Source of the DNA: a virus
DNA: 33,138 nucleotides
Strand: one strand, 5' to 3'
IMG/VR virus record: IMGVR_UViG_3300033145_003427
Coordinates: 1 to 33,138 of that record
Made by a program: the position numbers and the translations under genes. Positions 4,073 through 33,138 of this stretch are shown here, one piece after another. The notes beneath the pieces were generated by a model. It was not told where the DNA came from. It saw nothing but the letters and a program-made list of their open reading frames with translations, and did not search any database. The first letter of the stretch is position 1, and each line of letters starts with the position of its first letter.

Positions 4073-7000
4073 CTAATATCCGACAGCCATCCAATCGATT
4101 ATTCCTGTAACACCTGCCGGAACAGTATCATATACTTTTGAAAAGAACCCTGTAGTAATTTTCCTTACTACTATAGGCAACTTCGCTGCATCTTCAACCA
4201 GAGTGAGTCTGATAGATAATGACGAAGCTGAGTTGAACGCCCGAGCAAAAGTAATTGTAGTCCCACCAATTGCAATATCTACATTTTGTCCAGATTCTGA
4301 TCTGTCTGGTACATCAATTGTTACAATGAAGTCCCCTAATTCTATTCCATTGTATGGAAAACTAGATGGAGTTACTCCAAGTGTGAGCCTAAACTTCAAA
4401 TATCTAAAAGTATATTCTCCTTCTTGAAACGCTGACCAACCATTCCATGTAATATTATCATCTGAAATATTTATTTCAGTAGTGAGAGAAGTTCCATCTT
4501 CAGAGGTGACTTCTGTAGAAACATGAACTGAGCAAGACAGGATTGATGAAATATCTAAAACCTCAGTGACGAATGTCCCGGCAGTAATCTCTGTTGGGGG
4601 TTTCCATGCTTTAGTTTCTGTATCGTACCAAGCTTGTCCAGTAGTGTATGTATTAAATATATCAGTTCCTGTTCTCTTTGTAGCAACATGACATTTCAAA
4701 ATATCATAATCTACAAAGATATCACTTCTTTCTGGAACTAAATAATCTCCTGCCTCTGTCGTTAAATAATCACCTGCTTCTGTCGTCAGAGCATTGATTC
4801 CAGGGCCAAAATAATCAGCATACGCATATCTTCTATGCTGATTAGAAGTTTCAATTACATTTCTCTGAGTAGAAGCTTGAAGAGTGATAGCTTTGCTGGC
4901 ATAGTTATCGCTTTTATTCCCACTTGTATCTACTGTCTTTACAAAATAAAGCTTTGCTCCCTCACTGTATGACATTAAGATATACTTTGTATGGGTTAAC
5001 TGAACTACTAAAGTTGATGAGTTCCATGAGGACCCTTCTCTAATCTCAAAATGACTAAAATCAGCATCAGTCAATCCAGAGGGCCTATCTATAGTGAAGA
5101 TAACAGCGTCTCCTGACTGTACTACATTAAAGTTTTCTGGATCACTTGGCAAAGCCGTCTTTCCAAGGATTGTAGCAGTTACAGCAGAAACATCATCAAT
5201 AGGCTGAAGAACCCCCTGATCATATTCTGATCGCACCTTTACATATAAAGTATCTCCTTCTTCAAAATCTGCTCCTCCAGATTCAATCCTAAAACCAGGA
5301 GTAGTACCAGATGCTGCATTTCCATAATGATCATAAGTTGTTCCGCTTGTGCTTGTCCAGATTTGCCCTCTGTTCCAGAAGGTAGAATCACTAGGCTTGT
5401 CAAAGTATACCAGGACGTAAGGAACATAAGTCCCATCTCCTGCCACAAACCCTCCTTCCGATAATCTTACGTTCTCTACAGAGTTTATCTCAAAAGGATT
5501 AGAAAACTTAGGAGAATAGTTTTCCTGTTCTATGAAACCATCATCGTGGTAGATACCTGAATAGTACGCTTCAAGTTCAAACCTTGGTCGTCCCCACTCA
5601 TCTTCGTCCTTTCTTCTAACAAGAAAATTCTTTTGTGACCAGGAAGGCAAAGTGTGGGTAATCTGTACTCTATCATATACTTCTAAGTCACTTGAATCAG
5701 GAAATCCTGTAAGTCTACAAACATAGTCAGTATACTTAGCCTTGTCGAATTTGTATCTTGCTCTACGTTTTGCTACATCTGTTTCTGTTATATACCAACA
5801 ATTCTCCTCATACAGAACTTCTCCTCTATTTGTTATGTCTCTCTCGTCTTTTATTTCTACTACACTCTTTTTAAACTCATCACTAGAATCTATGTAATGA
5901 ACCCTGACTATATTGGGCCTTTTTACTTTGCCCCAGGTGATAGAATCCTTTACTATGTTATCCTGTGTAAAACTGTGCTTGGATGTTTTTGTTTGAAGGG
6001 CTCCAGCACCATCATGTTCCTCAGCAGCATCCCAGACAGGCTTAATCTGTCCCTGGTCCATGATGCACATACCATTGAACGACTTCCAGATGAGTTTCTT
6101 AGCGTCGTTTATGGTGGTTTTAGTATCAAAGTTGTAGTCAAACGTATACCTCTGGGATCTGCCAAATAGTTTAACATCTCTAATCCCCATATAAGCCCCA
6201 CCATAGTTATCACTGACCTTAAGACTATAGTACCGATAAGCAGTGGAATTTGTGAAAGTGAAAGTTTGAGGATCTGATTGGTCATTAGCAGTATGCTTAG
6301 CAGCAGTCTGACTTACTCCGATATTCGTCCACCCTGAAGCTGTCCAGGAAGTATCATTAAAAGCAGAAGAAGAATTAGAGCCTTGTAAAGTAAAATTTTT
6401 GATCCCTTGTATAAGAGTTCCTCCGTTGTGATGACCATTCTCAAGGACTAACTTATCAACAACGTAACTAACTCCCATGTCAATGTTGACTCGTTGATTT
6501 GTATTGGTCCCATTTGCTGATAGCCACTGCCTCTTTGCATGAGAACCAGTCAAAGATAATCTTTTATTCAGAGCATTCTGAGCTTTGTAACCAGTATTAT
6601 TGTACTGAGAAGTAGCTTTGACAGTACTGTCGCCTGGTCCTGGAGGTCTTATAGGAACAGAGTCTGCTGTAGTGGGCACTGTTGTACAGTAGGTATCAAG
6701 AGCAGTAAACGCATTCTGGTTCAACTCACTCGTGGGTCTTCCTTCAACATTTACATACCAGTCCCACATCACCTGTCCAGGACTTCTTGTAAAAGATTCT
6801 GTACCTCCAACTGCTTGTCCTATATCAAGCTGTTTAGTTCTAAGAACAGTATTGAAATTAGGAGTCCCCCTTATTTCATCTCCCTTACGGAGTTTTAATT
6901 CCGTAACAGCTGTTTCTCTGTACGGGCAGGTTTTGTTGTCCGTAAAGAGATTAGTAACTCCTGATTGGATAGTTGTTCCGCTATGAGACCATTTTGCATG

Positions 7001-7453
7001 ATCCGTATTTTTAAGATTTGACCACTCTACATCATTGATGTAATGAATAAGAAATGCATCAACAGTCCCTTCACAATGAGCAACGATCATTTTAATCCAA
7101 TCTGCTTCGTCTTTATCATTGATTCGGATTATATTTCCTGCTGTTCTACACCGACCAACACATTTAGAAATGATTATACCTTCTTTAGAAGTCAGGAGAG
7201 GAAGTTCTTTACCATAAGTACTTGAGTCATACCCAACGGAAGGATATTCGATGTCGAAATCCATAGTGAGGACATCAAACACAGAACCAGCAGCATATCC
7301 ACCAATGGCTCCTACCATTAAACCAGCAGCGACTGTTCCATATAGACCCAAAGGCATGAGGGCTAAAGCAGCCCCACCAGTGACAACTAGAAGAGCAGCT
7401 GCAGCTGCAGCTCCTAAGATTGCTCCTATAGTTCCGCCACCACCGCCGCCCAT
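4073..7453 (-). CDS. gpJ-like central tail tip / host-specificity protein with discoidin domain
   Basis: This 1126-aa protein lies at the position of lambda gpJ. Residues 1-60 are Gly/Ala-rich and hydrophobic. Residues 65-270 and 430-660 look like the tail-tip hub region (for example EGIIISKCVGRCRTAGNIIR and YTFDYNFDTKTTINDAKKL). Between them, about 273-432, is an inserted F5/8 type C (discoidin)-like domain: KATSQYNNTGYKAQNALN, WLSANGTNTNQRVNIDMG, then YYSLKVSDNYGGAYMGIRD. Residues about 690-860 look like fibronectin-III-type strands. A duplicated LTTEAGDYL occurs near residue 905. The role is to close the tail tip and bind the host surface. The start overlaps the upstream stop by one base (TAATG). 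An internal 69-codon minus-strand frame at 5239-5448 is a shadow. Confidence 0.8.
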   Translation of the reverse strand: MGGGGGGTIGAILGAAAAAALLVVTGGAALALMPLGLYGTVAAGLMVGAIGGYAAGSVFDVLTMDFDIEYPSVGYDSSTYGKELPLLTSKEGIIISKCVGRCRTAGNIIRINDKDEADWIKMIVAHCEGTVDAFLIHYINDVEWSNLKNTDHAKWSHSGTTIQSGVTNLFTDNKTCPYRETAVTELKLRKGDEIRGTPNFNTVLRTKQLDIGQAVGGTESFTRSPGQVMWDWYVNVEGRPTSELNQNAFTALDTYCTTVPTTADSVPIRPPGPGDSTVKATSQYNNTGYKAQNALNKRLSLTGSHAKRQWLSANGTNTNQRVNIDMGVSYVVDKLVLENGHHNGGTLIQGIKNFTLQGSNSSSAFNDTSWTASGWTNIGVSQTAAKHTANDQSDPQTFTFTNSTAYRYYSLKVSDNYGGAYMGIRDVKLFGRSQRYTFDYNFDTKTTINDAKKLIWKSFNGMCIMDQGQIKPVWDAAEEHDGAGALQTKTSKHSFTQDNIVKDSITWGKVKRPNIVRVHYIDSSDEFKKSVVEIKDERDITNRGEVLYEENCWYITETDVAKRRARYKFDKAKYTDYVCRLTGFPDSSDLEVYDRVQITHTLPSWSQKNFLVRRKDEDEWGRPRFELEAYYSGIYHDDGFIEQENYSPKFSNPFEINSVENVRLSEGGFVAGDGTYVPYVLVYFDKPSDSTFWNRGQIWTSTSGTTYDHYGNAASGTTPGFRIESGGADFEEGDTLYVKVRSEYDQGVLQPIDDVSAVTATILGKTALPSDPENFNVVQSGDAVIFTIDRPSGLTDADFSHFEIREGSSWNSSTLVVQLTHTKYILMSYSEGAKLYFVKTVDTSGNKSDNYASKAITLQASTQRNVIETSNQHRRYAYADYFGPGINALTTEAGDYLTTEAGDYLVPERSDIFVDYDILKCHVATKRTGTDIFNTYTTGQAWYDTETKAWKPPTEITAGTFVTEVLDISSILSCSVHVSTEVTSEDGTSLTTEINISDDNITWNGWSAFQEGEYTFRYLKFRLTLGVTPSSFPYNGIELGDFIVTIDVPDRSESGQNVDIAIGGTTITFARAFNSASSLSIRLTLVEDAAKLPIVVRKITTGFFSKVYDTVPAGVTGIIDWMAVGY

Positions 7454-7878
7454 TAGTTAATTTCCTTTATCATTGAAACAGTTTTTTCTTCCTTCCTAAA
7501 TCCATAATGGACAAACACCTCAGGCATGTTGGTATTTATAGAAACTGAAGTTGCTCCTCTTGTTTTTGCCCACTGCTCTATTAGTTCCAATCCTTTTCTA
7601 TTGTCTTTGATACCAAGAGAAGACCAGGTGTAAAAAACAAATACAGAAGCAGCCAAAGGAAGATTTACTGCATCTATAACTACAGAATACCCAGCCAACT
7701 CTTCGTCTTTGTAAGCAAACCATATGGCTACTTTGTCATTCTCACTTTCTATCTGAGAAACAAGCCATTGGATCCACTCTCCACGAGAGCCAGGGATGTA
7801 TAATTCTATATCATCTTCAAGAGACATAACTTTCACAACTTCTGCTACAGTCTCTACTTTTCTAATTTCTATTCCCAC
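7453..7878 (-). CDS. GNAT-like acetyltransferase in the tail-tip operon
   Basis: This 141-aa protein has a GNAT layout: an N-terminal IEIRKVETVAEVVKVM strand-helix, a central strand pair around ELAGYSVVIDAV and SVFVFYTWSS, then a helix GLELIEQWAKTRGATSVSI and a final VFVHYGFRKEEKTVSMIKEI. This matches the last strands of the acetyl-CoA-binding fold. A textbook Q/R-x-x-G-x-A loop is not obvious, so activity is uncertain. The start is GTG, overlapping the upstream stop (TAGTG). It sits between the gpL-like and gpJ-like genes, where lambda-like phages usually carry the NlpC/P60 peptidase gpK. It may modify a tail protein or be a structural exaptation. Confidence 0.6.
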   Translation of the reverse strand: MGIEIRKVETVAEVVKVMSLEDDIELYIPGSRGEWIQWLVSQIESENDKVAIWFAYKDEELAGYSVVIDAVNLPLAASVFVFYTWSSLGIKDNRKGLELIEQWAKTRGATSVSINTNMPEVFVHYGFRKEEKTVSMIKEIN

Positions 7879-8759
7879 TATTGTCCCTCTGTCCTTCCAC
7901 CTATGTGGAGAAAACCTTTGAAATTATCTTGATTGTCACTGCTCGGTCCCCAAGCATCTGTAGCACTACAAGCATTCCAAGTACCAGGACAGCCTTTCCT
8001 TAAAGTATAAGAAGTTATACTTGTATCAATCGTAAATGGTAAAGCCACATCTACCTGAATTTCATTAGAGGTTCCACTAAAATCATTAACGATTCTACTA
8101 TGGGTGACCCCGCTCTTTACGATCTCAATACTACCAAAGTTCCAATAGTCGTTAGCTTGAGTTAAGTTGCCTGCATCTGCAAATGTAGTAGCACTATTTC
8201 CTACTACACTAACAGCACTCGTAACAGTAAGTTTCATTGTGGTGCTGCTCAAATCAGAATAGCCATTTCTGTTACAACCTACATCTCCAAAAATTCTATT
8301 GCACTTTCTCTGGAAGATGTCGTGTAAAGAATGTTTCTCTAACGGCTTCCCAGCAGTAGCAGAAACTGTTAGCCATTGAGGGCCTATGTTTTCTGGCTCC
8401 TCCATGTAGCCATTAAACAACTCAATGTAGTTTGCAGCAACTCCTAAAGTTCCTAAATATACTCGCATGATCTTTAAAGACTTTCCATAGAAATCTTCAG
8501 TAGCAAGATATGCAGACATGTCACCTGTGACATTGTCAAGCTTAACTGTCACTCGGCCTATTTGTCCCTCCATAGACTGAGATATACGAGAAATCTGCAT
8601 AGCCTTCGCTGTATAGACATTGCCATCAAAAGTAATATTGCCTTTTGCTCCAGCATTCCGTAAGGTAGCACCATACAATCCTAACTCTACAAGAATTATA
8701 GGTTGTTGTTGTGCTGCATCTATCTTTGCTACAACAGCTGCTGGGATATTCTTAGCCAA
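7878..8759 (-). CDS. gpL-like tail tip protein with four-cysteine (Fe-S type) site
   Basis: This 293-aa protein is related to the lambda gpL / DUF2163 tail-tip group. The N-terminal half (ITFDGNVYTAKAMQISRIS, then LFNGYMEEPENIGPQWLTV) is the hub-like part. The C-terminal half carries C153, C162, C257 and C264, in KCNRIFGDVGCNRNGY and KGCPGTWNACSATDAW, and ends with DNFKGFLHIGG. The spacings of nine and seven match my recollection of the four cysteines that bind a 4Fe-4S cluster in lambda gpL. The start is TTG (MAKN) directly after the upstream TAA, with GAGG eight bases before it. It lies between a short distal tail protein and the GNAT gene, as expected for tail-tip assembly. Confidence 0.8.
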   Translation of the reverse strand: MAKNIPAAVVAKIDAAQQQPIILVELGLYGATLRNAGAKGNITFDGNVYTAKAMQISRISQSMEGQIGRVTVKLDNVTGDMSAYLATEDFYGKSLKIMRVYLGTLGVAANYIELFNGYMEEPENIGPQWLTVSATAGKPLEKHSLHDIFQRKCNRIFGDVGCNRNGYSDLSSTTMKLTVTSAVSVVGNSATTFADAGNLTQANDYWNFGSIEIVKSGVTHSRIVNDFSGTSNEIQVDVALPFTIDTSITSYTLRKGCPGTWNACSATDAWGPSSDNQDNFKGFLHIGGRTEGQ

Positions 8760-9137
8760 TTACGCAACCTCTTTTTCAAATTCTATTTCTGCTTCCCAGG
8801 AGTTGGCTTTAGGTTTGAACCGAAAAGAGCCCGTTACCCACCTTCCAGTAATGTTACTACCATCGGGAGTTCCGTCCTGATCAGTATCAATATAGGAAGG
8901 AACAGAAGACCAAACAAAAGAATCATATCCTCCTTTAGCTGAATAGTAATGATTGTAGAGAGTCCAAAAATCTGTATCTGACAATCCTTCAAACAAGAGT
9001 TTATACTTCAATACGGGGGTACTGCCAGAAAGGTCTATATAGTTTTTCTTTTGGTTCTCTGACAGTGTTGTAATCGTGTGAAACTCAGGCTCTGTTGGAT
9101 GTACCCATGTGGGAGTAACTGTAAACGCTGCCGCCAT
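8760..9137 (-). CDS. Minor/distal tail protein
   Basis: This 125-aa protein is directly downstream of the tape measure gene, the gpM-like slot of lambda-type tails. The sequence FTVTPTWVHPTEPEFHTITT and the motif LSDTDFWTLYNHYYSAKGG, followed by GRWVTGSFRFKPKANSWEAE, look like a small beta-barrel distal tail component. The ending EIEFEKEV resembles tail-adaptor proteins that read out a fitted strand. AGGAG lies 11 bases before the ATG. The role as a connector between tail tube end and tip is inferred mainly from position. Confidence 0.65.
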   Translation of the reverse strand: MAAAFTVTPTWVHPTEPEFHTITTLSENQKKNYIDLSGSTPVLKYKLLFEGLSDTDFWTLYNHYYSAKGGYDSFVWSSVPSYIDTDQDGTPDGSNITGRWVTGSFRFKPKANSWEAEIEFEKEVA

Positions 9138-9138
9138 A

Positions 9139-11484
9139 CTATGATCTACTCCTTATAAGTTTTCTTATTCTCTCATCGTTTTCATAACTGGCAACTACAG
9201 CCTGGGGAGCTAGTTCAGTAGTCACAACTGCTGCTATTTGTTCCATATAAGTTCTTTGTGTATCTAAATCCTGAAAGACAGGATTCTCCATATGAATAAT
9301 TACAGTTTGTCCTGCTCCTGTCATCTCTACCGGGATCTTGCCTCCAGCAGATAAAGGAACATGGGCTTCAGGCACGCCAGCATAGTATATGCCTGGCTCT
9401 CTTGAAATACCTCCTGCGTCATAACTTGGAGGCTTCTGAGCTTTGATTGCTGCTACTTGAGCAAAGCCCATAGCTCCTACGGTAGCTGCTACAGCGAAAT
9501 TAAATGGAGGAGGAATAGTTGCTAATGCTTTCGTAATTGCCTCATAGGTGTTTATGGTAGCCTGAATAATTGAAAATACTTTATTCATTCTAAATGCTTC
9601 TTTACTACTCACCATACCAGCTTCACCTAACATTTGAAACGTTTGGGCCATATTGCTAGCTGCTTGGGATGCATACCCCATTTTAGCTGATGCTTCTTGT
9701 CGTGCTATTTTCTTCCTTTCTTCTGCTGCCCAAGCTTCGAGTTTTATTCTATCTACTCCAGCTTTTTCATAAAGTTTTCGTTCTCTTTCTACATTTAGTC
9801 TGGCTACTTCGAACTCAGTTTTTCCTAACTCTTGATATTTTTCCAGAAACTCTTGTTTTCTTGCAAACTTCTCTGATTCCCCCATAGCAATATCAGTAAG
9901 AGGAGATGGAGGAACTCCAGGTAACTTGGGTTTTCCCTTTGCAACAACTCCAGGAAGAAGACCTTTTTCTGCCCTCTCTTTTGCTGCTTTTTCCATGACA
10001 TTTGTTATTTCTTTTTCCAGTTTATCTTGAAGTCCTTTTAATTTTTCACCATAACCTTCGAAGTCTTTTAATCTCTCTTCATAGGCTTTTCTTGCTTGCT
10101 CTGTTCCAGTTTCTAGATAGAACTTCCCTGCTTGTGGAACAACCCCTTGTGGCCCAAAATAATATTCCCAAGCAACACCAAATTTGTCTTTTATCCATCT
10201 ATAACTAATTTTTAGCGGTTCAATGATATGTTCATTAAACCACTGATATCCAAAAGTAGTCTTTATATTCTCCCACATGTAAGCCCATATAGCAGAAATA
10301 TTAGCAATCACAGGAAGAAAAGAAATCCTAATAACTTTAACAATACCAAGGAATAAATCTAAAATCCAAATCATTATTTTATCTTTGTTTCTTTTTATCA
10401 TTTCTGCTAAAGAGACGACACTATTTGCTAACCAAGTAAAAATCTTTTTTCCTTGATCTTTATAGACATCAAAAACAGAAATTCCTAATTCTTGTATGGC
10501 AGACCAAAGGATTTTCCACTGACCTCGGAATGTATCCATCATACGACTATACATTTCAGATGTTCTGCCGGCTTCCTTTTGAGAATCCCTTAACATTTGA
10601 ACAAAATTAGAAAATGCTCCTACAGAATTTGCCGCTTGTTCTGCTAATCTTTTCATATTAAGACCAGCACGAGCACCAAAAATGTCTACTGCCTGCTTTG
10701 TAGTCATAGATCTCTTACCGATTGTTTCTAATATCTCTCCAAATGTATAGGTCTCTGGGTTGACATCTTGAAAAGTCAATCCCATCTGAGCTAATGCTTG
10801 TTGAGCTTTAGTAGTTTGTTTAGACAGTTGGATCATAGACATTCTTAAGTTAGTACCAGCCATACTACCTTCTAAACCAAGATTAGCAAACTGGGCTACC
10901 GCTGCAGTGGTTTCTTCAATAGTCCATCCTAAAGCCGCTCCAGTAGTGCCAGCAAACTTCATTGCCTCGGTAAGTCGTTCCATTGTCAACTGAGAACTTG
11001 TAATAGCAGCAGCATATGTATCAGTTATTCTCCTCGATTCCTCTGCTCTAAGACCAAACTGTTTCATAGAAGCTGCAAGAATTCTTGTGCCTTGTTCCAT
11101 CTGAGAACCGGTAGCTCCTGCCAATTTCATAGCATCTTCTACAGAAACCACTATTTGTCTTGTATTCATACCAGCAGAAGCTAGATCGTACATACCTCTT
11201 GCTGCCTGAGTTGCTGTAAAAGCGGTGGTTTTGCCCAACTCTCTAGCCTTATCCTCAAGAGCTTTTAACTCTTTTCCAAAGGCTTGTGCCACTGTAGCCG
11301 TTTCAGTAAGCACTTGTTCAAATTTTGATCCAACGAGAGCAGAGGTAGCAATCACCCCTGCAAAAGCAAGAGTGAGTCTTTTAGCAGTTCGTTTAGCTGA
11401 GGAGACAGCCTGTCTCATTCCTCGTTTAAAACCAGCTAGGTCAGCTCCTACTCTTACTACCAACTTTTCAGTACCAGCGACCAT
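9139..11484 (-). CDS. Tail tape measure protein (TP901 family core)
   Basis: This 781-aa protein sets tail length and helps DNA enter the cell. Residues about 60-270 match the TP901-type core: ARELGKTTAFTATQAARGMY, LAGATGSQMEQGTRILAASM, then ITSSQLTMERLTEAMKFAGT. Hydrophobic segments lie at about 370-405 (IMIWILDLFLGIVKVIRISF) and near 660-690. A Lys/Glu-rich helical stretch separates them. At roughly 1.5 angstrom per residue, a tail of about 115-120 nm is predicted. The start overlaps the frameshifted chaperone gene (TAATG) with AAGGGA upstream. It follows the chaperones as in lambda. Confidence 0.92.
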   Translation of the reverse strand: MVAGTEKLVVRVGADLAGFKRGMRQAVSSAKRTAKRLTLAFAGVIATSALVGSKFEQVLTETATVAQAFGKELKALEDKARELGKTTAFTATQAARGMYDLASAGMNTRQIVVSVEDAMKLAGATGSQMEQGTRILAASMKQFGLRAEESRRITDTYAAAITSSQLTMERLTEAMKFAGTTGAALGWTIEETTAAVAQFANLGLEGSMAGTNLRMSMIQLSKQTTKAQQALAQMGLTFQDVNPETYTFGEILETIGKRSMTTKQAVDIFGARAGLNMKRLAEQAANSVGAFSNFVQMLRDSQKEAGRTSEMYSRMMDTFRGQWKILWSAIQELGISVFDVYKDQGKKIFTWLANSVVSLAEMIKRNKDKIMIWILDLFLGIVKVIRISFLPVIANISAIWAYMWENIKTTFGYQWFNEHIIEPLKISYRWIKDKFGVAWEYYFGPQGVVPQAGKFYLETGTEQARKAYEERLKDFEGYGEKLKGLQDKLEKEITNVMEKAAKERAEKGLLPGVVAKGKPKLPGVPPSPLTDIAMGESEKFARKQEFLEKYQELGKTEFEVARLNVERERKLYEKAGVDRIKLEAWAAEERKKIARQEASAKMGYASQAASNMAQTFQMLGEAGMVSSKEAFRMNKVFSIIQATINTYEAITKALATIPPPFNFAVAATVGAMGFAQVAAIKAQKPPSYDAGGISREPGIYYAGVPEAHVPLSAGGKIPVEMTGAGQTVIIHMENPVFQDLDTQRTYMEQIAAVVTTELAPQAVVASYENDERIRKLIRSRS

Positions 11485-22012: not shown

Positions 22013-23119
22013 TTAAGCAGTACTTTTGTAAGCATATCGATAATCTACAGCGCCAATACCCCCAAACATACGGACTTTAAATTTACTCTTTATGTCTCTT
22101 GAAAACTCATCCTCATGTCCGGGCTTCATCGACATCGTCTGTAATGGCCAAACTTCTTCCCACCAGAACGACCGTTTAAAATTGCCCCAATACCAAGTAG
22201 TAGCGCTTTGTTTAGTAATATAAGGACTAGTCCTCACTTTAAACTTTCCTTTGAAGATATTAACTGCATTCTCAGCCGACTCTGGTACTAATGTAGAATT
22301 AGCCATCTGCAAAGCTTCAATCTGCAAATCCTTTGGGACAAGAACAATTACATCATCATCAGCAATGAAGATGTAATCTGTATCATGAGTTCCTGTAGAA
22401 TCATCCCTCATCTGATGAGCCAATTTTTCTACTTCTTCAAGACCTGACTCACCAAAAGGATTAGAAGTTTTTAAATTACCATTACCTGTAGAATAAATAG
22501 CAGTTCCCGTTCCTTCAGGTCTATATACAACATATTGACCAGCCTTCTGGACATCCTGAACACCCTCAACAATAAGTCTCTCTTTATACTGAGCAGCCTT
22601 GTCTCCTATTCCTTGAGCTCGAGTAAGGATCTGACCAGTCTGGTCGAAAAAGATCATCTCCTCTGTAACAGATATAATACGTCCATATTTCTTGTTATGG
22701 ATTGTAACATGTTTTTCTGTCAGAGTTGAATCATCATAAGGATGTCCCTCTGGAACCTCGTCCACTCCTTCTGAAGCAGTAAACCCAGCCACAGTGTCAA
22801 TCTTCTGCTTGATCCCAGGTACAGTAGTAACTAGTTCATCTCCTATCGTAGGGGCTGACTCAAAGGCTTCGATGATTCTCGAATTGATCAACTCCCCCGT
22901 AATCTTAGGAAAAGAATCTGAGGAGACTGCCTCATGGATACTCCTAACGGAGCCATCCTCGTTTCTTTCACAAGCCTCCCAGATCTCTCGAATAGAAAAG
23001 TCATCCGGTCTCAGCTTTCCGCTCTCAAGTGCTTTTTGAATCACTCGACGAGCTCCTTCGCTACCTTTTGACTCCAATAGATCTCGGAGAGCAGTTCCTG
23101 TAGTATCTCTAAAAGCCAT
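22013..23119 (-). CDS. Major capsid protein (HK97-fold)
   Basis: This 368-aa protein forms the icosahedral shell. It follows the protease/scaffold and decoration genes, as usual. The N-terminal 60 or so residues are helical and charged. Then comes a capsid-like core: VTIHNKKYGRIISVTEEMIF, FDQTGQILTRAQGIGDKAAQ, TDYIFIADDDVIVLVPKDLQ, IKSKFKVRMFGGIGAVDYRY. These are arranged as E-loop, P-domain and A-domain of HK97-like proteins. There is no obvious long cleaved delta domain, since the protein is helical from residue 8. AGGAGG lies nine bases before the ATG. Assignment is by position, size and pattern. Confidence 0.85.
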   Translation of the reverse strand: MAFRDTTGTALRDLLESKGSEGARRVIQKALESGKLRPDDFSIREIWEACERNEDGSVRSIHEAVSSDSFPKITGELINSRIIEAFESAPTIGDELVTTVPGIKQKIDTVAGFTASEGVDEVPEGHPYDDSTLTEKHVTIHNKKYGRIISVTEEMIFFDQTGQILTRAQGIGDKAAQYKERLIVEGVQDVQKAGQYVVYRPEGTGTAIYSTGNGNLKTSNPFGESGLEEVEKLAHQMRDDSTGTHDTDYIFIADDDVIVLVPKDLQIEALQMANSTLVPESAENAVNIFKGKFKVRTSPYITKQSATTWYWGNFKRSFWWEEVWPLQTMSMKPGHEDEFSRDIKSKFKVRMFGGIGAVDYRYAYKSTA

Positions 23120-26431: not shown

Positions 26432-29194
26432 TTAAGTGGTTTTGGTCTTCTTTTTCTTAGTAATCTGCTTAGCTTTTCTTTTCAACTTATCAATTGTAAG
26501 GATTCTTCTATCCGTTGCCATTTGATTGAGTTTTAACTTCCCCTTCTTCCAAAGACCATACCGAGTCGGGCCTAGAATATCTTCTGCCCTTCCTGCTTCG
26601 TAGATTGCAGAGGCGGGATCATCTAATTGTTTCAACCACATCGGGTAAGCAAGAGTTGAAGGAACTGGACCGGCAAAGGAGGCCCGTGTAGAAGGAGGAA
26701 CTTCCTTTGTCACTTTGTCTCCTAATTCTTTCCAGGATTTTGAGATGGGGGCTAGGACGCATCGGCAATTATGAGAAACAAATCCATTAGCTATATAAGA
26801 CTCATCATCCTCAACAGAAAAGTTATAAAGAGTAGTAGACGTCACTGTAGGAGTTTTCCCTCCTTTCTTAGTCGAAATCCAATGTTTCACAGAAACAACT
26901 TTTAATTCTATATACTTATATTCACCATTATGATTTGCCATAACTCTACACAACTCGTCCACACAAGAACCAACATCTGAATTTACTTCACTCTCAGAAT
27001 ATCGTAAAACAAGCCACCCTTGATCTTCTATCTCTTTTTGTCTTTTTTGATCTTTTTCTTTATTCTGATGCCAATAATCGCCATCTACCTCGATAGCAAT
27101 CTTAAGTTTAGGAATTGCAAAATCTACAAAATATCCAACTATAGGGTGTTGTTTTGTAAAAGTGAGCCCTCTTGCTTCCATCATTTCTCTGAACTTCTTT
27201 TCTAAACTAGATTCAAATCCCTTTCTAGCCATAACTCTATTAGGATGTTTATCAGGATTCTCTTTAAAAAATTTCCTCATCTTACGACCATAAACTAATC
27301 TTAGATGAGGATACTTCACCATGCAATTCTTATCGCCTTTTTTCGATTCAGAAATTTGAATCCTAACTTCTGGTCGTTTAGAAGGATTTCTCTCTCCAAT
27401 TTGTGGATTAGTTTGGAAAGGATGAATTCCATCATAAAACATTTTTGCAACTGCTCTTCTGGCTGGGACTGTGGCTGAATATCTATTTCTTTCTCCAGAA
27501 GCATATTGTTCTATATTTTTAGCACTAATTTTCTCTGACATATTCTTTCGATGTTCAGGATCTGTCCACTGTTTATCTGTAACATCTTTACTCAAACAAC
27601 TCTGAGAACAATGTTTTCTATTATAAGGAATCAATTTCCCACATCTCTTACATTCTGCAGCCAGATATCTCAACATATCACCAACTTTAATTTCTTTAGC
27701 AGGCTGCCATTCACCATCAATCATGAGAGGATGATCTGTAGTAACGGTCAGTTTTCTTGTGCCTGGTCTAAACACCTTACTTGTATTAAATCTAGGAAAT
27801 TCAACTTCTACAGTTACAACTTCTGGGCCTTTCACCTTATGTCGAATTATGTCCGTTACTTTTCTAAACCTCCCTTTGTGAGTCAGAACTCTATCTCCAA
27901 CTTCAATCTTACCTATAGATTTCATTCCTCTTGAAGTAAATATAGGAATTTGGTGGTCGATAAAACAATAAGGATGCAAAGGAATTATCGGAGCGTTGAT
28001 AACTCCTTCTTTATATTGATAAATCTTCCCGTCAAGAGATCCACAACGGATGCAATTGTGAACAAAAACCCCTTCAGCTAGAAAAGAATGGTCCTCTTCA
28101 ACAGCAATATCATAAACCTCCACTTCTTCTATCACTTCTTCAACTGATAATATTTCAATTTCCTCAAAAGTCATCTTATTTTTGCCATCGATTGCATCCC
28201 CTAGTTTTAAATTTCTAACCTCAATCCATCTTTCTTCTTTTAAAACTAAATGATCGGAAGTTATCTTCAAAATTTTTCCATTTGATAGTTTGACTTTTAA
28301 GTATCTATCCCTCTTAGTTTTCATCTTACCCAAAATCCGTCTCCAATTTCCTTTATGAGATAAAACCAAATCCCCTACTTTTACATCTTTTATTCTCTTC
28401 TCTCCTTCTTTGGTATTTACAATAGTTTCTGGAAGTAAACATGTTCTCGAATCAAGCGTACTCACGAATTGCACTCCACGCAGCACATCCTGATTCTCAT
28501 TATAGATCCCTCTTGCTACTCGATTACTAACATGTTGAATCTCTGTCCGAGCAACAATCTGAGCCTTATTCCATATCAACTTTTCTGCTTCTCCAGCTGT
28601 AAGTTTTACTGTAAGTTTTAATTCTTCTATTCTTGGAATCAAGGCAGGGGCTACAGGTTTAACCAACCTTTTAGCAGCCCTGGCCATGTCTTCCCCTTGA
28701 ATAATAGACTGAGTTAGTTCTCGTTTCATCAAACCGATAGCTTTCTGGTTTGTCCAGAGCAGTTCGTCAGCTATCTTTCTCTCACCAAGTAAAGGATTAG
28801 AAAGGATATGATCAATATGCCTATAAGGTAATCGGACTATATCTATTCCAAGCGGGCCGTAAGCCTTGTCTAACATGTTATGATAGACCTGAGAATCTAA
28901 TAGGGCTATCTCTTTCATTCCATCTTCTAAGATGCCAGCCGACTGAAGCGCAGCAGCATTTAAAACCCCTTGAACCTCAGCCAACTGTGCCTTTAATCGA
29001 GCCACTCGGAAATCAAGACTGAATCCAGTACCGTATTTTTCCAGAGAAACAAGCCGATCATAGATTTGGTTTTTGGCCCTCCTGTAAGGCTTGAGCATAC
29101 TATGAATGGTTTTGGTTTCAAACCTATACTGATAATGTGGCCATTTCAGTAGAAATTCTCGGAAGGAAAGAGAAACATTTTTCTTAGCAGGCAT
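26432..29194 (-). CDS. MuF-type minor head protein (SPP1 gp7-like) interrupted by two inteins
   Basis: The 920-aa precursor contains an extein of 391 aa (residues 1-251, 381-409, 810-920) after two splicing events. Joined, the extein reads STLDSRT-CIRCGSLDGKIY, then IIPLHPY-CRCVLAPISK, which is the signature T-C-x-x-C-x-x-L-D-G-K-x-Y...L-H-P-x-C-R-C of the MuF/SPP1 gp7 family. The N-terminal part is helical (long segments around 60-100 and 140-230) and binds the portal in related phages. It acts in head morphogenesis or is carried into the cell with DNA. The ATG follows the portal stop directly (TAG ATG). Both inteins sit before conserved cysteines. Confidence 0.9.
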   Translation of the reverse strand: MPAKKNVSLSFREFLLKWPHYQYRFETKTIHSMLKPYRRAKNQIYDRLVSLEKYGTGFSLDFRVARLKAQLAEVQGVLNAAALQSAGILEDGMKEIALLDSQVYHNMLDKAYGPLGIDIVRLPYRHIDHILSNPLLGERKIADELLWTNQKAIGLMKRELTQSIIQGEDMARAAKRLVKPVAPALIPRIEELKLTVKLTAGEAEKLIWNKAQIVARTEIQHVSNRVARGIYNENQDVLRGVQFVSTLDSRTCLLPETIVNTKEGEKRIKDVKVGDLVLSHKGNWRRILGKMKTKRDRYLKVKLSNGKILKITSDHLVLKEERWIEVRNLKLGDAIDGKNKMTFEEIEILSVEEVIEEVEVYDIAVEEDHSFLAEGVFVHNCIRCGSLDGKIYQYKEGVINAPIIPLHPYCFIDHQIPIFTSRGMKSIGKIEVGDRVLTHKGRFRKVTDIIRHKVKGPEVVTVEVEFPRFNTSKVFRPGTRKLTVTTDHPLMIDGEWQPAKEIKVGDMLRYLAAECKRCGKLIPYNRKHCSQSCLSKDVTDKQWTDPEHRKNMSEKISAKNIEQYASGERNRYSATVPARRAVAKMFYDGIHPFQTNPQIGERNPSKRPEVRIQISESKKGDKNCMVKYPHLRLVYGRKMRKFFKENPDKHPNRVMARKGFESSLEKKFREMMEARGLTFTKQHPIVGYFVDFAIPKLKIAIEVDGDYWHQNKEKDQKRQKEIEDQGWLVLRYSESEVNSDVGSCVDELCRVMANHNGEYKYIELKVVSVKHWISTKKGGKTPTVTSTTLYNFSVEDDESYIANGFVSHNCRCVLAPISKSWKELGDKVTKEVPPSTRASFAGPVPSTLAYPMWLKQLDDPASAIYEAGRAEDILGPTRYGLWKKGKLKLNQMATDRRILTIDKLKRKAKQITKKKKTKTT
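26768..27967 (-). mobile_element. Intein 2 with Vsr-like/EDxHD-type homing endonuclease (400 aa)
   Basis: The intein runs from C410 to N809, with C810 as the first extein residue (SHN|C). Block A is CFIDHQIPIF with IGKIEVGDRVLTHKG; block B is LTVTTDHPLM with T486 and H488; block F/G is YNFSVEDDESYIANGFVSHN. Between them is a four-cysteine zinc-finger-like unit (C515, C518, C529, C533), NUMOD3-like stretches (DPEHRKNMSEKISAKN at 546-561; GERNPSKRPEVRIQISESKK at 600-619), and a nuclease: FESSLEKKFREMMEARG, YFVDFAIPKLKIAIEVDGDY with D691, E702, D704 and H709. This is the Vsr/DUF559-like PD-(D/E)XK fold seen in some homing endonucleases. Cleavage of inteinless copies of the gene is the expected role. 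Confidence 0.85.
28055..28441 (-). other. Intein 1, mini-intein without endonuclease (129 aa)
   Basis: The intein runs from C252 to N380, with C381 as the first extein residue. Block A is CLLPETIVNTKEGEKRIKDV with KVGDLVLSHKG; block B is ITSDHLVL with H315; block F/G is VYDIAVEEDHSFLAEGVFVH ending in N380. All needed splicing residues (C1, block B His, terminal His-Asn, C+1) are present. There is no room for a homing nuclease, so it is a mini-intein that probably lost one. Splicing restores SRT-CIRCGSLDGKIY. Confidence 0.88.
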
Positions 29195-30730
29195 CTACTT
29201 ATCGCCTTCTATAGCTACATCTAATATCTTATCAGCTAAAGAATTAGCTTCTTCCCAATTAGCTTCTTTGACAGCTTTTATCAACTCCGCACCGAACTGA
29301 TTTATAGGGCTCATGGGAAGATTAAACGGTGATTGTCCTCCTGGGGTTCCTGGAGGATAAACTTCATCTCCTTCTTCACCATCAAGGTTGCCTTTTTCAA
29401 TTTCATCATCTAATCCCATCTTACCCCGCCAAGTTTTCTTACTCACAATTTTATACTTAAACAGAATTTCAAAAGCCTTAGCCAACTTGTCAATATCAGC
29501 AGCAATCATCGGAGGAAACTCTACCCGACAGGTTGTTTCTGTTTCTTTAGGCAAGTCTCCATGGTCAATCTTATTCTGAATAACTATCTCAAATAGATCC
29601 TCATAGAAGCCAGTAAAATAGTCCTGCCACTCTTCTATCTCTCTCACAAAAGGATTCTGAGCAATGAGACTACTCGCGTAATTAGCATTACTATAGTCAC
29701 CAGTAAAGATCATCTCAGGCATCCCCACTCCAGCCGCAATCGATAACAACATAGATCTACCATCTTCTGCGACATCGCTTGCATTTATGTTAGGACTAAG
29801 CATATTGTACTCTATTCCTTTACTTGCAGTAATAATTGTTCCTCTTGGAGGAGCCTTTACCTTCTTTTTACTAGATGATAAGTTATCACTGAGATTTTCA
29901 TTCCGAATCTCTTTTACTTTAGAAGCCGAACCTTCTACTGTTCTAACTAGAGCAATAGCGCTGCGAACTTTATTCAATACTATCCGGTCTTCAAGCCACT
30001 CATCATATTGTTTCAACCGTTTGCTACAAACTCGCAGAACAGACACACCTCGTTTTTGGTCTGAATCCGAGAAAACTTTCAGGTGAATGATTTCCTCTGC
30101 CTTAATCTCTTCTTTAAAGTTCCCATCAGAGTCGCAACGAGTATAGGAAACAGGAGTTTCTACATCTTCTGGTTCTGTCTTAATACCAAAGCTATATTCA
30201 TTTCCAAACTTCTTGCCCCCACCAACTCCACGAGTTGGCTTACTAATTTGAGTTGCCCTAATAAATCTTATTTTTACATCACCATTCTGGTTTGGGCTCT
30301 TTTCCCTGAATAAACGTAGAAAGACTTCTCCATCCCTAAACAGTCTTGTAGCAATTTCTTTCTCTCTCCAATTAAACTTGTTCTGACGACGGAAATCTTC
30401 CCACACTTCATTTACCTTCTCATTTTCAGCATCAGGATCTATCTTAGGCCCTTTTCCAAGAGTGAACTTAACAAGACTTCTAACAATAGCTCTTGCATGA
30501 GTATTGTCGTGATAGAGCTTGAATACCCCCCTAAGTATGGTATTATGATCAGCCTCTTCGACAATTCCTCTTCCTGCTTGGCCAAGAAGATTCCAATCAT
30601 TCTCGTCCTCATCTCGTATGATACTATTTCGAGCTTCAGTTAGCATCTTAGTAGCAGTTTCTAATTCGATTAGCTCATACTTAAGCGAAGCCGCTCTCAA
30701 CTTTCTTTTTGTCTTTATTATCTCAAACAT
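29195..30730 (-). CDS. Portal protein (lambda-type family)
   Basis: This 511-aa protein forms the dodecameric DNA channel at one capsid vertex. Motifs include an early helical stem around FKLYHDNTHARAIVRSLVKF, KEIATRLFRDGEVFLRLFRE, IIHLKVFSDSDQKRGVSVLR and the late segment IAAGVGMPEMIFTGDYSNAN followed by YASSLIAQNPFVREIEEWQD. These are typical of lambda gpB-type portals. The C-terminus is acidic with a Pro/Gly-rich PPGTPGG turn. GAGG lies eight bases upstream of the ATG. It is followed directly by the MuF gene, and preceded by a sigma-like gene and a 33-bp motif. Confidence 0.9.
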   Translation of the reverse strand: MFEIIKTKRKLRAASLKYELIELETATKMLTEARNSIIRDEDENDWNLLGQAGRGIVEEADHNTILRGVFKLYHDNTHARAIVRSLVKFTLGKGPKIDPDAENEKVNEVWEDFRRQNKFNWREKEIATRLFRDGEVFLRLFREKSPNQNGDVKIRFIRATQISKPTRGVGGGKKFGNEYSFGIKTEPEDVETPVSYTRCDSDGNFKEEIKAEEIIHLKVFSDSDQKRGVSVLRVCSKRLKQYDEWLEDRIVLNKVRSAIALVRTVEGSASKVKEIRNENLSDNLSSSKKKVKAPPRGTIITASKGIEYNMLSPNINASDVAEDGRSMLLSIAAGVGMPEMIFTGDYSNANYASSLIAQNPFVREIEEWQDYFTGFYEDLFEIVIQNKIDHGDLPKETETTCRVEFPPMIAADIDKLAKAFEILFKYKIVSKKTWRGKMGLDDEIEKGNLDGEEGDEVYPPGTPGGQSPFNLPMSPINQFGAELIKAVKEANWEEANSLADKILDVAIEGDK

Positions 30731-31389: not shown

Positions 31390-33138
31390 CTATCCCCACC
31401 AGCCATCACCTTCAATATCTTCAAATACAGGAGCAAATAATTCCCGAAAGTAAGAAATAGAAGACTGTACTATGTACCGAGCACAGTCCATTCCATGATT
31501 ATACATATCAAGTGGTTCTTTAGGATTCGGTTTCCCTTGTTTGGTCACTTTATACTTGTAAAGCTCAAATTCACGAGTAGTATCTATCAATTCTACAGAA
31601 TCGCAGTCAAAATAATTATCAAATACATAGAAATGCGCTTTTCTATTCCCTTCCCCATCTTTATATGTTTGAAGATGTGCTCTCAATGTACTAATTCCTG
31701 CTTCTTTTGATGTCTCTGCTCCGAGAGTGGGAATACCATGAGTTTCTTCCAAATCAATCCGTTCCTGCTTTGCAGAGGGATCAGCAAAGATTATCTCCCC
31801 AGGACTATATCCAGGGCTGGACTTTATCCTCGAAGCGTGCTCTTCTATTGTCCTTCCTCCAGTACGATACTCATAAAATAAGTAGTAGGTAATCTTAGCT
31901 CGGATAGCTTCGCCCAAAGGAGTATTTTCTGCTTCACTTCGAAAGTCAGTCACATCAAGATAGTATTTCTGATATACAAAATCGTGTCCAGGACTGGTCC
32001 CAAAGTCGATAGCAGAAGCAATAATAAAATCTCTCTCATCACCAGGCTCAAAAGGAGGAATGATATGGAACCTCTCATTCCAGTAGCCTCCATATACAAA
32101 AACAGAACCAGAAGGACGTTTGTTAAACCACTCGACATTGAGAGTCTCACGGTCAAGGCGAAGAACCTTGTCAAGAATGAAGTCCTCTACTTTGTAGTAA
32201 CCCACACATTTACGGGCTCTTTGACCACAAACCTGCTTTATAGGACAATCTCCCCAGTAAGGATCTCCTTTACATTGATGAGTACAACGCTCAAGCACCT
32301 CCCAAACACACCAGCAATAGGTCCTCATGCCTCCTACTACATCTTTTTCAAGCTTGGCTTGGTCAAGGAGTTGTTGCATAGGTCCAGATTCTCGCTGTCT
32401 TGTAGAAGTATACACTGTCTGAGCAGTAATTGTATGGCCTGTACTTACAGACTCTCCAGACATCGCCATACTCATACCAGCTTGAAGAACACCCCAATCC
32501 ATTTCTTCCACTTCGTCGAAGCGGGCCTTATGAGGATGAGGACCCCGCACCCCTTTCTCTGTGCCGGAGATGACTTGTAGCTGACTCTCGTTTTTGTACA
32601 CAAACAGAGTCTTTGTAGGTTCTCTTGCGAACAACTCACCTAGAAACTCGTTACTACTATGAAATTCTTTAAAGTATCCACACATTTTATCTGCTTGAGT
32701 TAGGACAGCACCAGCAGATACTATCTCGCACCCAGGCTTGAAAAGCATGTCAAGATGATTCAGGATAGCAAGGTTTAATGTTTTCCCTCCTGTACGGTTG
32801 GCAAATCCTATAGCATTCCTAACTCGTTCAAAAAACATATCTGAGATAAAAGAGAATGGAGCCTTATGGTGTCGGCAAACCCGATCATGCCCCCGTGGAA
32901 TGGAGTACCCTAGAAATGCTCGTATGTAGAAATGGAGCATATCATCATGTCGAGGTCCTCCTTGGTCTATAAGACCTTCGAGAAGTTGGGAATAGTAATT
33001 TTCATTATCTTCTTTTTTAAGAAACTCATCTGCGATACGAGAAAACAATTTTTTGTTTTTGCTCTTTCTCGCATCTGTAGTCGGTAAGTCGTTAAATCTT
33101 AAAATCGCTTCTGTAAGTTCTTGCGTATCGTTTCTCAT
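31390..33138 (-). CDS. Terminase large subunit
   Basis: This 582-aa protein packages DNA. The ATPase part has a Walker A-like GFANRTGGKT (111-120, K119) and Walker B-like KARFDEVEEM (204-213, D208/E209). The nuclease part has D378 in IASAIDFG, D453 in IIFADPSAK and D551 in MYNHGMDCARYI. Between them, residues 275-311 hold seven cysteines (C275, C277, C285, C289, C298, C304, C311), probably a zinc site. The ATG is at the last base of the window, so the upstream ribosome binding site and any earlier start are not visible. Length is normal for the family. Confidence 0.92.
   Translation of the reverse strand: MRNDTQELTEAILRFNDLPTTDARKSKNKKLFSRIADEFLKKEDNENYYSQLLEGLIDQGGPRHDDMLHFYIRAFLGYSIPRGHDRVCRHHKAPFSFISDMFFERVRNAIGFANRTGGKTLNLAILNHLDMLFKPGCEIVSAGAVLTQADKMCGYFKEFHSSNEFLGELFAREPTKTLFVYKNESQLQVISGTEKGVRGPHPHKARFDEVEEMDWGVLQAGMSMAMSGESVSTGHTITAQTVYTSTRQRESGPMQQLLDQAKLEKDVVGGMRTYCWCVWEVLERCTHQCKGDPYWGDCPIKQVCGQRARKCVGYYKVEDFILDKVLRLDRETLNVEWFNKRPSGSVFVYGGYWNERFHIIPPFEPGDERDFIIASAIDFGTSPGHDFVYQKYYLDVTDFRSEAENTPLGEAIRAKITYYLFYEYRTGGRTIEEHASRIKSSPGYSPGEIIFADPSAKQERIDLEETHGIPTLGAETSKEAGISTLRAHLQTYKDGEGNRKAHFYVFDNYFDCDSVELIDTTREFELYKYKVTKQGKPNPKEPLDMYNHGMDCARYIVQSSISYFRELFAPVFEDIEGDGWWG

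Follow-up and report, generated by a model that had tools for sequence, protein, structure and literature searches.

How did the gene for a phage head protein come to be interrupted twice within a single cysteine motif? The question is raised by the window, i.e. the whole stretch of 33,138 nucleotides analysed here (IMG/VR virus record IMGVR_UViG_3300033145_003427), where a MuF minor head protein is encoded on the minus strand as a precursor of 920 amino acids with two inteins inside (26432..29194). The frame starts with an ATG at 29194 and runs to 26432 with zero internal stops. All its segments lie on the minus strand: an N-extein ending in LDSRT (residues 1-251, 28442..29194), a class-1 mini-intein of 129 residues (intein 1, residues 252-380, 28055..28441), a middle extein of 29 residues that separates both inteins (residues 381-409, 27968..28054, CIRCGSLDGKIYQYKEGVINAPIIPLHPY), a class-1 intein of 400 residues with a homing endonuclease (intein 2, residues 410-809, 26768..27967), and a C-extein starting with CRCVLAPISKSW (residues 810-920, 26435..26767). 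These boundaries agree with an earlier sequence-only reading, which gave no strand and in which two complete inteins of 129 and 400 residues were placed 29 extein residues apart.

Splicing in silico yields a protein of 391 amino acids with the junctions DSRT/CIRCGSLDGK and PLHPY/CRCVLAP (slashes mark the former insertion points). The same reading had placed both inteins right before conserved MuF cysteines and held that the motif is restored in the 391-residue product, which was borne out by the Phage_Mu_F profile (PF04233, curated cutoff 29.6 bits): the unspliced precursor scored 19.8 bits, below the cutoff, and the spliced protein 49.7 bits, above it, covering model positions 4-111 of 112. 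Since both inteins sit immediately before conserved cysteines of the motif, the mature protein would need two splicing events, as had been proposed, with splicing predicted from the intact motifs. The +1 cysteines of MuF may serve as metal ligands. Besides MuF, zero Pfam domains exceeded their cutoffs in the spliced protein, and no C-terminal toxin domain of the kind that defines MuF polymorphic toxins was found in it. The predicted MuF structure (pLDDT 76) had no match among solved structures. The gene occupies a normal place for MuF in an intact terminase-portal-MuF-capsid order, with the portal protein directly upstream (29195..30730, PHROG portal 1.7e-34), the terminase large subunit upstream of the portal (31390..33138, PHROG 2.1e-10), and a protein of the head maturation protease/major head protein family downstream (22013..23119, PHROG 3.5e-22), all on the minus strand.

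Class-1 inteins splice via a thioester at Cys1, transfer to the +1 Cys, and cyclisation of Asn. The precursor matched the Pfam Intein_splicing profile (9e-16) and, twice, the NCBIfam intein_Cterm profile (9e-17). Intein 1 has the complete class-1 set (Cys/Ser1, TxxH, C-terminal HN, and +1 Cys/Ser/Thr) in the form of Cys1 C252 (CLLPET), block B TSDH, block G VHN (H379-N380), and +1 Cys C381, and when taken alone it matched Intein_splicing with 42 bits (1e-10; cutoff 35.8 bits). An endonuclease domain is absent from its 129 residues. The gp41-1 intein, a naturally split helicase intein, was the best solved relative of intein 1 (PDB 6QAZ), with a similar sequence matching along the full length (4.6e-10) and nearly the same size, 128 versus 129 residues. 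Unlike split gp41-1, intein 1 is contiguous, although a relative of intein 1 in contig L014 is split.

Intein 2 likewise has all class-1 residues, i.e. Cys1 C410 (CFIDHQIPIF), block B TTDH, block G SHN (H808-N809), and +1 Cys C810, and its predicted fold matches intein structures, with the modelled splicing domain resembling the gp41-1 and DnaB inteins. Taken alone it scored 30.4 bits against Intein_splicing, just below the cutoff, as the match is interrupted by the endonuclease. The endonuclease is a Vsr-like/DUF559 domain (residues 663-751, 26942..27208, minus strand; DUF559 1e-17, MTES_1575 1.2e-11), and the intein also holds a four-cysteine zinc finger resembling a treble clef (CKRC...CSQSC, 27596..27652, minus strand). 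In an alignment of 34 sequences the splicing residues, all four zinc-finger cysteines, and D282, E293 and D295 of the endonuclease were invariant, E256 and H300 were nearly so, and DUF559 was matched in 31 of the 34. I-Bth0305I is an intron-associated endonuclease. In a Foldseek search with the model built from this alignment (pLDDT 86) it was the closest solved fold to the endonuclease (PDB 3R3P, E 3e-5, TM-score 0.84 when normalised by endonuclease-domain length), and sequence and model both show the Vsr-like (I-Bth0305I/EDxHD-type) fold with its acidic and His residues; the domain in the window differs in lying inside an intein with a zinc finger of its own. Since a homing endonuclease is found in intein 2 and is absent from intein 1, intein 2 would be the mobile one of the pair, a point on which the sequence-only reading was silent.

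When the spliced protein was used as the query, with seed peptides that avoid the intein junctions, approximately 17 distinct close MuF relatives were found. Neither intein was present in 14 of them (L002, L003, L005 and L095-L106 are among the intein-free relatives), whereas L004 has intein 1 only, L011 intein 2 only, and L014 both, so that an intein is carried by about one sixth of the relatives in this small sample. Every combination of empty and occupied sites is represented, and the junctions are the same throughout. Intein-free relatives align gaplessly over both junctions; each insert is absent at the same point in homologs and the exteins are continuous without it, so the inserts are not normal parts of the family, and the homolog comparison that could have refuted the earlier reading came out in its favour. 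The same-site relative of intein 1 in L004 has 132 residues. In L014 (IMGVR_UViG_3300014613_000031, 4272-10567) the MuF gene is fractured inside intein 1 into an N-half, a free-standing zinc-finger ORF, and a C-half, the latter with its own start and a ribosome-site-like sequence and also containing an intein 2 in cis with a partly deleted endonuclease.

The splicing domains of inteins 1 and 2 share only 27% identity; separate arrivals are therefore likelier than a duplication from one site to the other. Taken together, we favour the reading that the MuF gene has undergone two invasions, each by a distinct class-1 intein and each at its own site, with a probability of about 0.88. Each intein would be excised by the Cys1 thioester, +1 Cys and Asn route, as its intact catalytic residues suggest, and excision of both would restore the four-cysteine motif in the 391-residue head protein. 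Intein 2 would be a full mobile element, whose Vsr-like endonuclease cuts intein-free MuF genes at the CRC codons so that the intein is copied in; such homing is suggested by the anatomy of the endonuclease and by the occurrence of one intein family in very divergent MuF proteins. The family resides in portal-MuF fusions as well as in quite different MuF proteins, and in 472 of 666 pairs the intein 2 sequences were closer to each other than the exteins were, a rough comparison as the extein alignments are short. Intein 1 has presumably lost its endonuclease, and would now be inherited vertically or by co-conversion. The motif may be targeted because imprecise removal would destroy a cysteine pattern needed by the head protein. 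An endonuclease-free intein 1 and the existence of single-intein relatives would fit a stepwise invasion.

Another possibility is that splicing serves as a control, in which the inteins delay or gate head assembly, for instance according to the redox or metal state of the cysteines, to the benefit of the phage. Both junctions are indeed cysteines of one motif, and one report (PMC6195587) describes two DnaB inteins of Mycobacterium smegmatis that differ in rate and in stress response. However, most close relatives manage without either intein, and the patchy distribution and the attached endonuclease fit selfish mobility, which makes a control function improbable. We consider it considerably less probable still that one or both inteins are splicing-dead, with MuF dying or its function supplied otherwise. 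Relatives with broken frames or partly deleted endonucleases, such as L014, would suit such decay, but in the window the 920-codon frame is intact, neither intein lacks a splicing residue, and the terminase-portal-MuF-capsid gene order is undisturbed.

MuF proteins are known carriers of polymorphic toxins. The PT-HINT and Hint_2 profiles also matched, as might be expected if the Hint domains, like those of polymorphic toxins and bacterial intein-like domains, were to autocleave and release a C-terminal part with no splicing. On the other hand, both inteins have the full C1...HN/C splicing set, and each is followed by an ordinary MuF continuation and not by a toxin; the toxin or Hint-release reading was thus rejected and is very unlikely.

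A profile scan with intein 2 matched 148 viral contigs, and among the 80 of these that were listed we found, after removal of near-duplicates, approximately 45 junction clusters at HPxCRC (site 2). Most insertions are located at the first Cys of the CRC triplet, which defines site 2, and a few at the second Cys, two codons later; same-family inteins at this second Cys were observed in L012, L013, L022, L042, L044 and in intein 2 of L014. Site 1 is the first Cys of the CxxC pair. A DNA pattern for its junction (VHN followed by CxxC...[D/E]G) found 60 contigs, nearly all of them MuF genes with a site-1 intein, corresponding to 38 junction clusters. Because the contigs were found through their inteins, the cluster counts for both sites do not represent frequencies. 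Site-2 inteins also occur in cultured phages, viz. Gordonia phages Nordenberg and Malisha and Vibrio phages 1.265.O and 1.266.O. Five further MuF genes with two inteins were identified (L014, L127, L131, L156 and L159, in the last of which the second intein is cut by the contig end), and the paired inteins are spaced by 26 to 56 residues in L127, L131, L156 and L159. The cysteine motif of MuF (CxxC...HPxCRC) is thus a recurrent two-site intein target, and the rarity attributed to the pair by the sequence-only reading did not hold, with both sites common in environmental tailed phages, the cultured Gordonia and Vibrio phages carrying inteins too, and five other contigs having both. The window is an IMG/VR record and not a cultured isolate, but an assembly artefact is strongly disfavoured, to the point of being negligible, by independent contigs in which these inteins recur at identical sites, alone or as a pair, and by the site-2 inteins of cultured phages.

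At the DNA level the insertion sites do not stand out by their conservation, ranking approximately 11 to 51 of 260 windows. As they are not in the most conserved DNA stretch, the choice of the exact codons is unexplained by sequence conservation alone. In L012 and L013 the portal and MuF proteins are fused in one ORF with the intein at the MuF motif, and L040, an ORF of 1445 codons with the same intein, is probably a similar fusion. MuF matches in Arthrobacter phages were rejected as inteins, the genes being uninterrupted, and a match in Xanthomonas phage FoX3 is a helicase intein with no antisense endonuclease. A scan of genome contigs gave only distant matches, mostly on the splicing domain.

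Of the 38 site-1 clusters, 20 have an uninterrupted antisense frame of 206-326 codons that is exactly in codon register with the intein, whose own sense frame stays open across it. These antisense frames read as repeated zinc fingers, in most cases followed by a Vsr/DUF559 nuclease; of four analysed with Pfam, all matched DUF559 (6.9e-11 to 2.5e-7). The site-1 inteins concerned are those of L124, L125, L127, L129, L130, L131, L133, L139, L151, L152, L157, L159, L165, L167, L172, L177, L180, L181 and L182, with L126 less certain, and they include three of the two-intein genes (L127, L131 and L159). At site 2, antisense cases were observed in the cultured phages Malisha (gp5, L187), 1.265.O (L186), 1.266.O (L010) and Nordenberg (gp9, L008), and an intein is annotated in none of these, with the Vibrio proteins labelled as hint domain proteins. 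DUF559 was matched by the antisense frames of 1.266.O (1.9e-10) and 1.265.O (7e-13) and weakly by that of Malisha, and the frame in Nordenberg bears a weak LAGLIDADG resemblance (I-MsoI, E 0.0013).

Codon-position statistics support the view that the antisense genes are real. TTA, CTA and TCA codons, which are stops in the intein frame, were observed zero times in every case versus 5.5 to 14 expected, although this follows in part from choosing loci with an open intein frame. Protein identity was higher for antisense than for sense in 153 of 153 pairs, which are not independent but all point in the same direction. Third positions of the antisense frame were the most variable in the antisense region (0.67 versus 0.49 and 0.44), whereas the splicing domains of these inteins varied most at third positions of the sense frame. 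A Shine-Dalgarno-like motif precedes 8 of the 20 antisense starts, compared with 12% at other ATGs, and promoter-like boxes occur at a common distance in several cases (combined p 0.0017). These upstream signals are only suggestive, since the starts were our own choice and a conserved intein segment is encoded by these very bases; the antisense endonuclease gene possibly has its own promoter and ribosome site.

In L144, L147, L158 and L166, C-terminal parts of site-1 inteins have a sense frame starting only about 62-66 residues upstream, and an antisense zinc-finger frame begins at that sense start; these may be split inteins whose halves flank an endonuclease encoded on the opposite strand. 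In the window no antisense endonuclease was found, the longest plus-strand frames being 131 codons in intein 2 and 53 in intein 1, and a plus-strand ORF of 127 amino acids had no family match. More speculatively, intein 1 of the window may be a remnant after loss of an antisense endonuclease gene. It is likely that, throughout the tailed phages, the cysteine motif of MuF acts as a trap with two sites for mobile inteins, with many site-1 inteins having an opposite-strand homing-endonuclease gene overlapping in codon register. The latter inteins would represent a new architecture, where splicing and mobility are read from opposite strands.

A catalogue of mycobacteriophage inteins (Kelley et al. 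2016, PMC5050341) includes six portal-protein inteins, and its Table 1 lists terminase, RecB, RDF, NT, methylase, primase, portal, helicase, ThyX and a hypothetical protein as hosts, with MuF absent; the elements resemble those of the window in class, in insertion at conserved motifs, and in having phage hosts. In Haloferax MCM (PMC10643990) neighbouring inteins occur in one gene, and it was proposed that the double state arises mostly via invasion of single-intein alleles; the paired inteins were found to home poorly together and better into one-intein alleles. The host there is an archaeal helicase and both endonucleases are active, whereas the window has a structural host protein and one intein with no endonuclease. 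We found no description of MuF inteins in the open-access papers searched, and no precedent there for an antisense endonuclease in an intein. Nearest is the ShiLan element (PMC11855218), in which an HNH endonuclease is hidden out of frame within a phage methylase. Like the antisense MuF inteins it has an endonuclease overlapping a frame kept open through the insert, but in ShiLan it is on the same strand and no splicing domain is present, whereas in the MuF inteins it is on the opposite strand and the splicing domain is kept.

The two-intein MuF gene is thus confirmed, and its interest comes from the hotspot and the antisense-endonuclease inteins reached from it. The 129-residue intein 1 and the paired sites could serve as protein-ligation tools. 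With MuF, the gene families repeatedly attacked by inteins gain a structural head protein that is hit at two positions of a single cysteine motif, and every intermediate state is available for studying how a second intein arrives beside a first. The antisense relatives pose the question of how one stretch of DNA can serve both an intein and an opposite-strand endonuclease gene, and the cultured Vibrio and Gordonia phages make this question testable.
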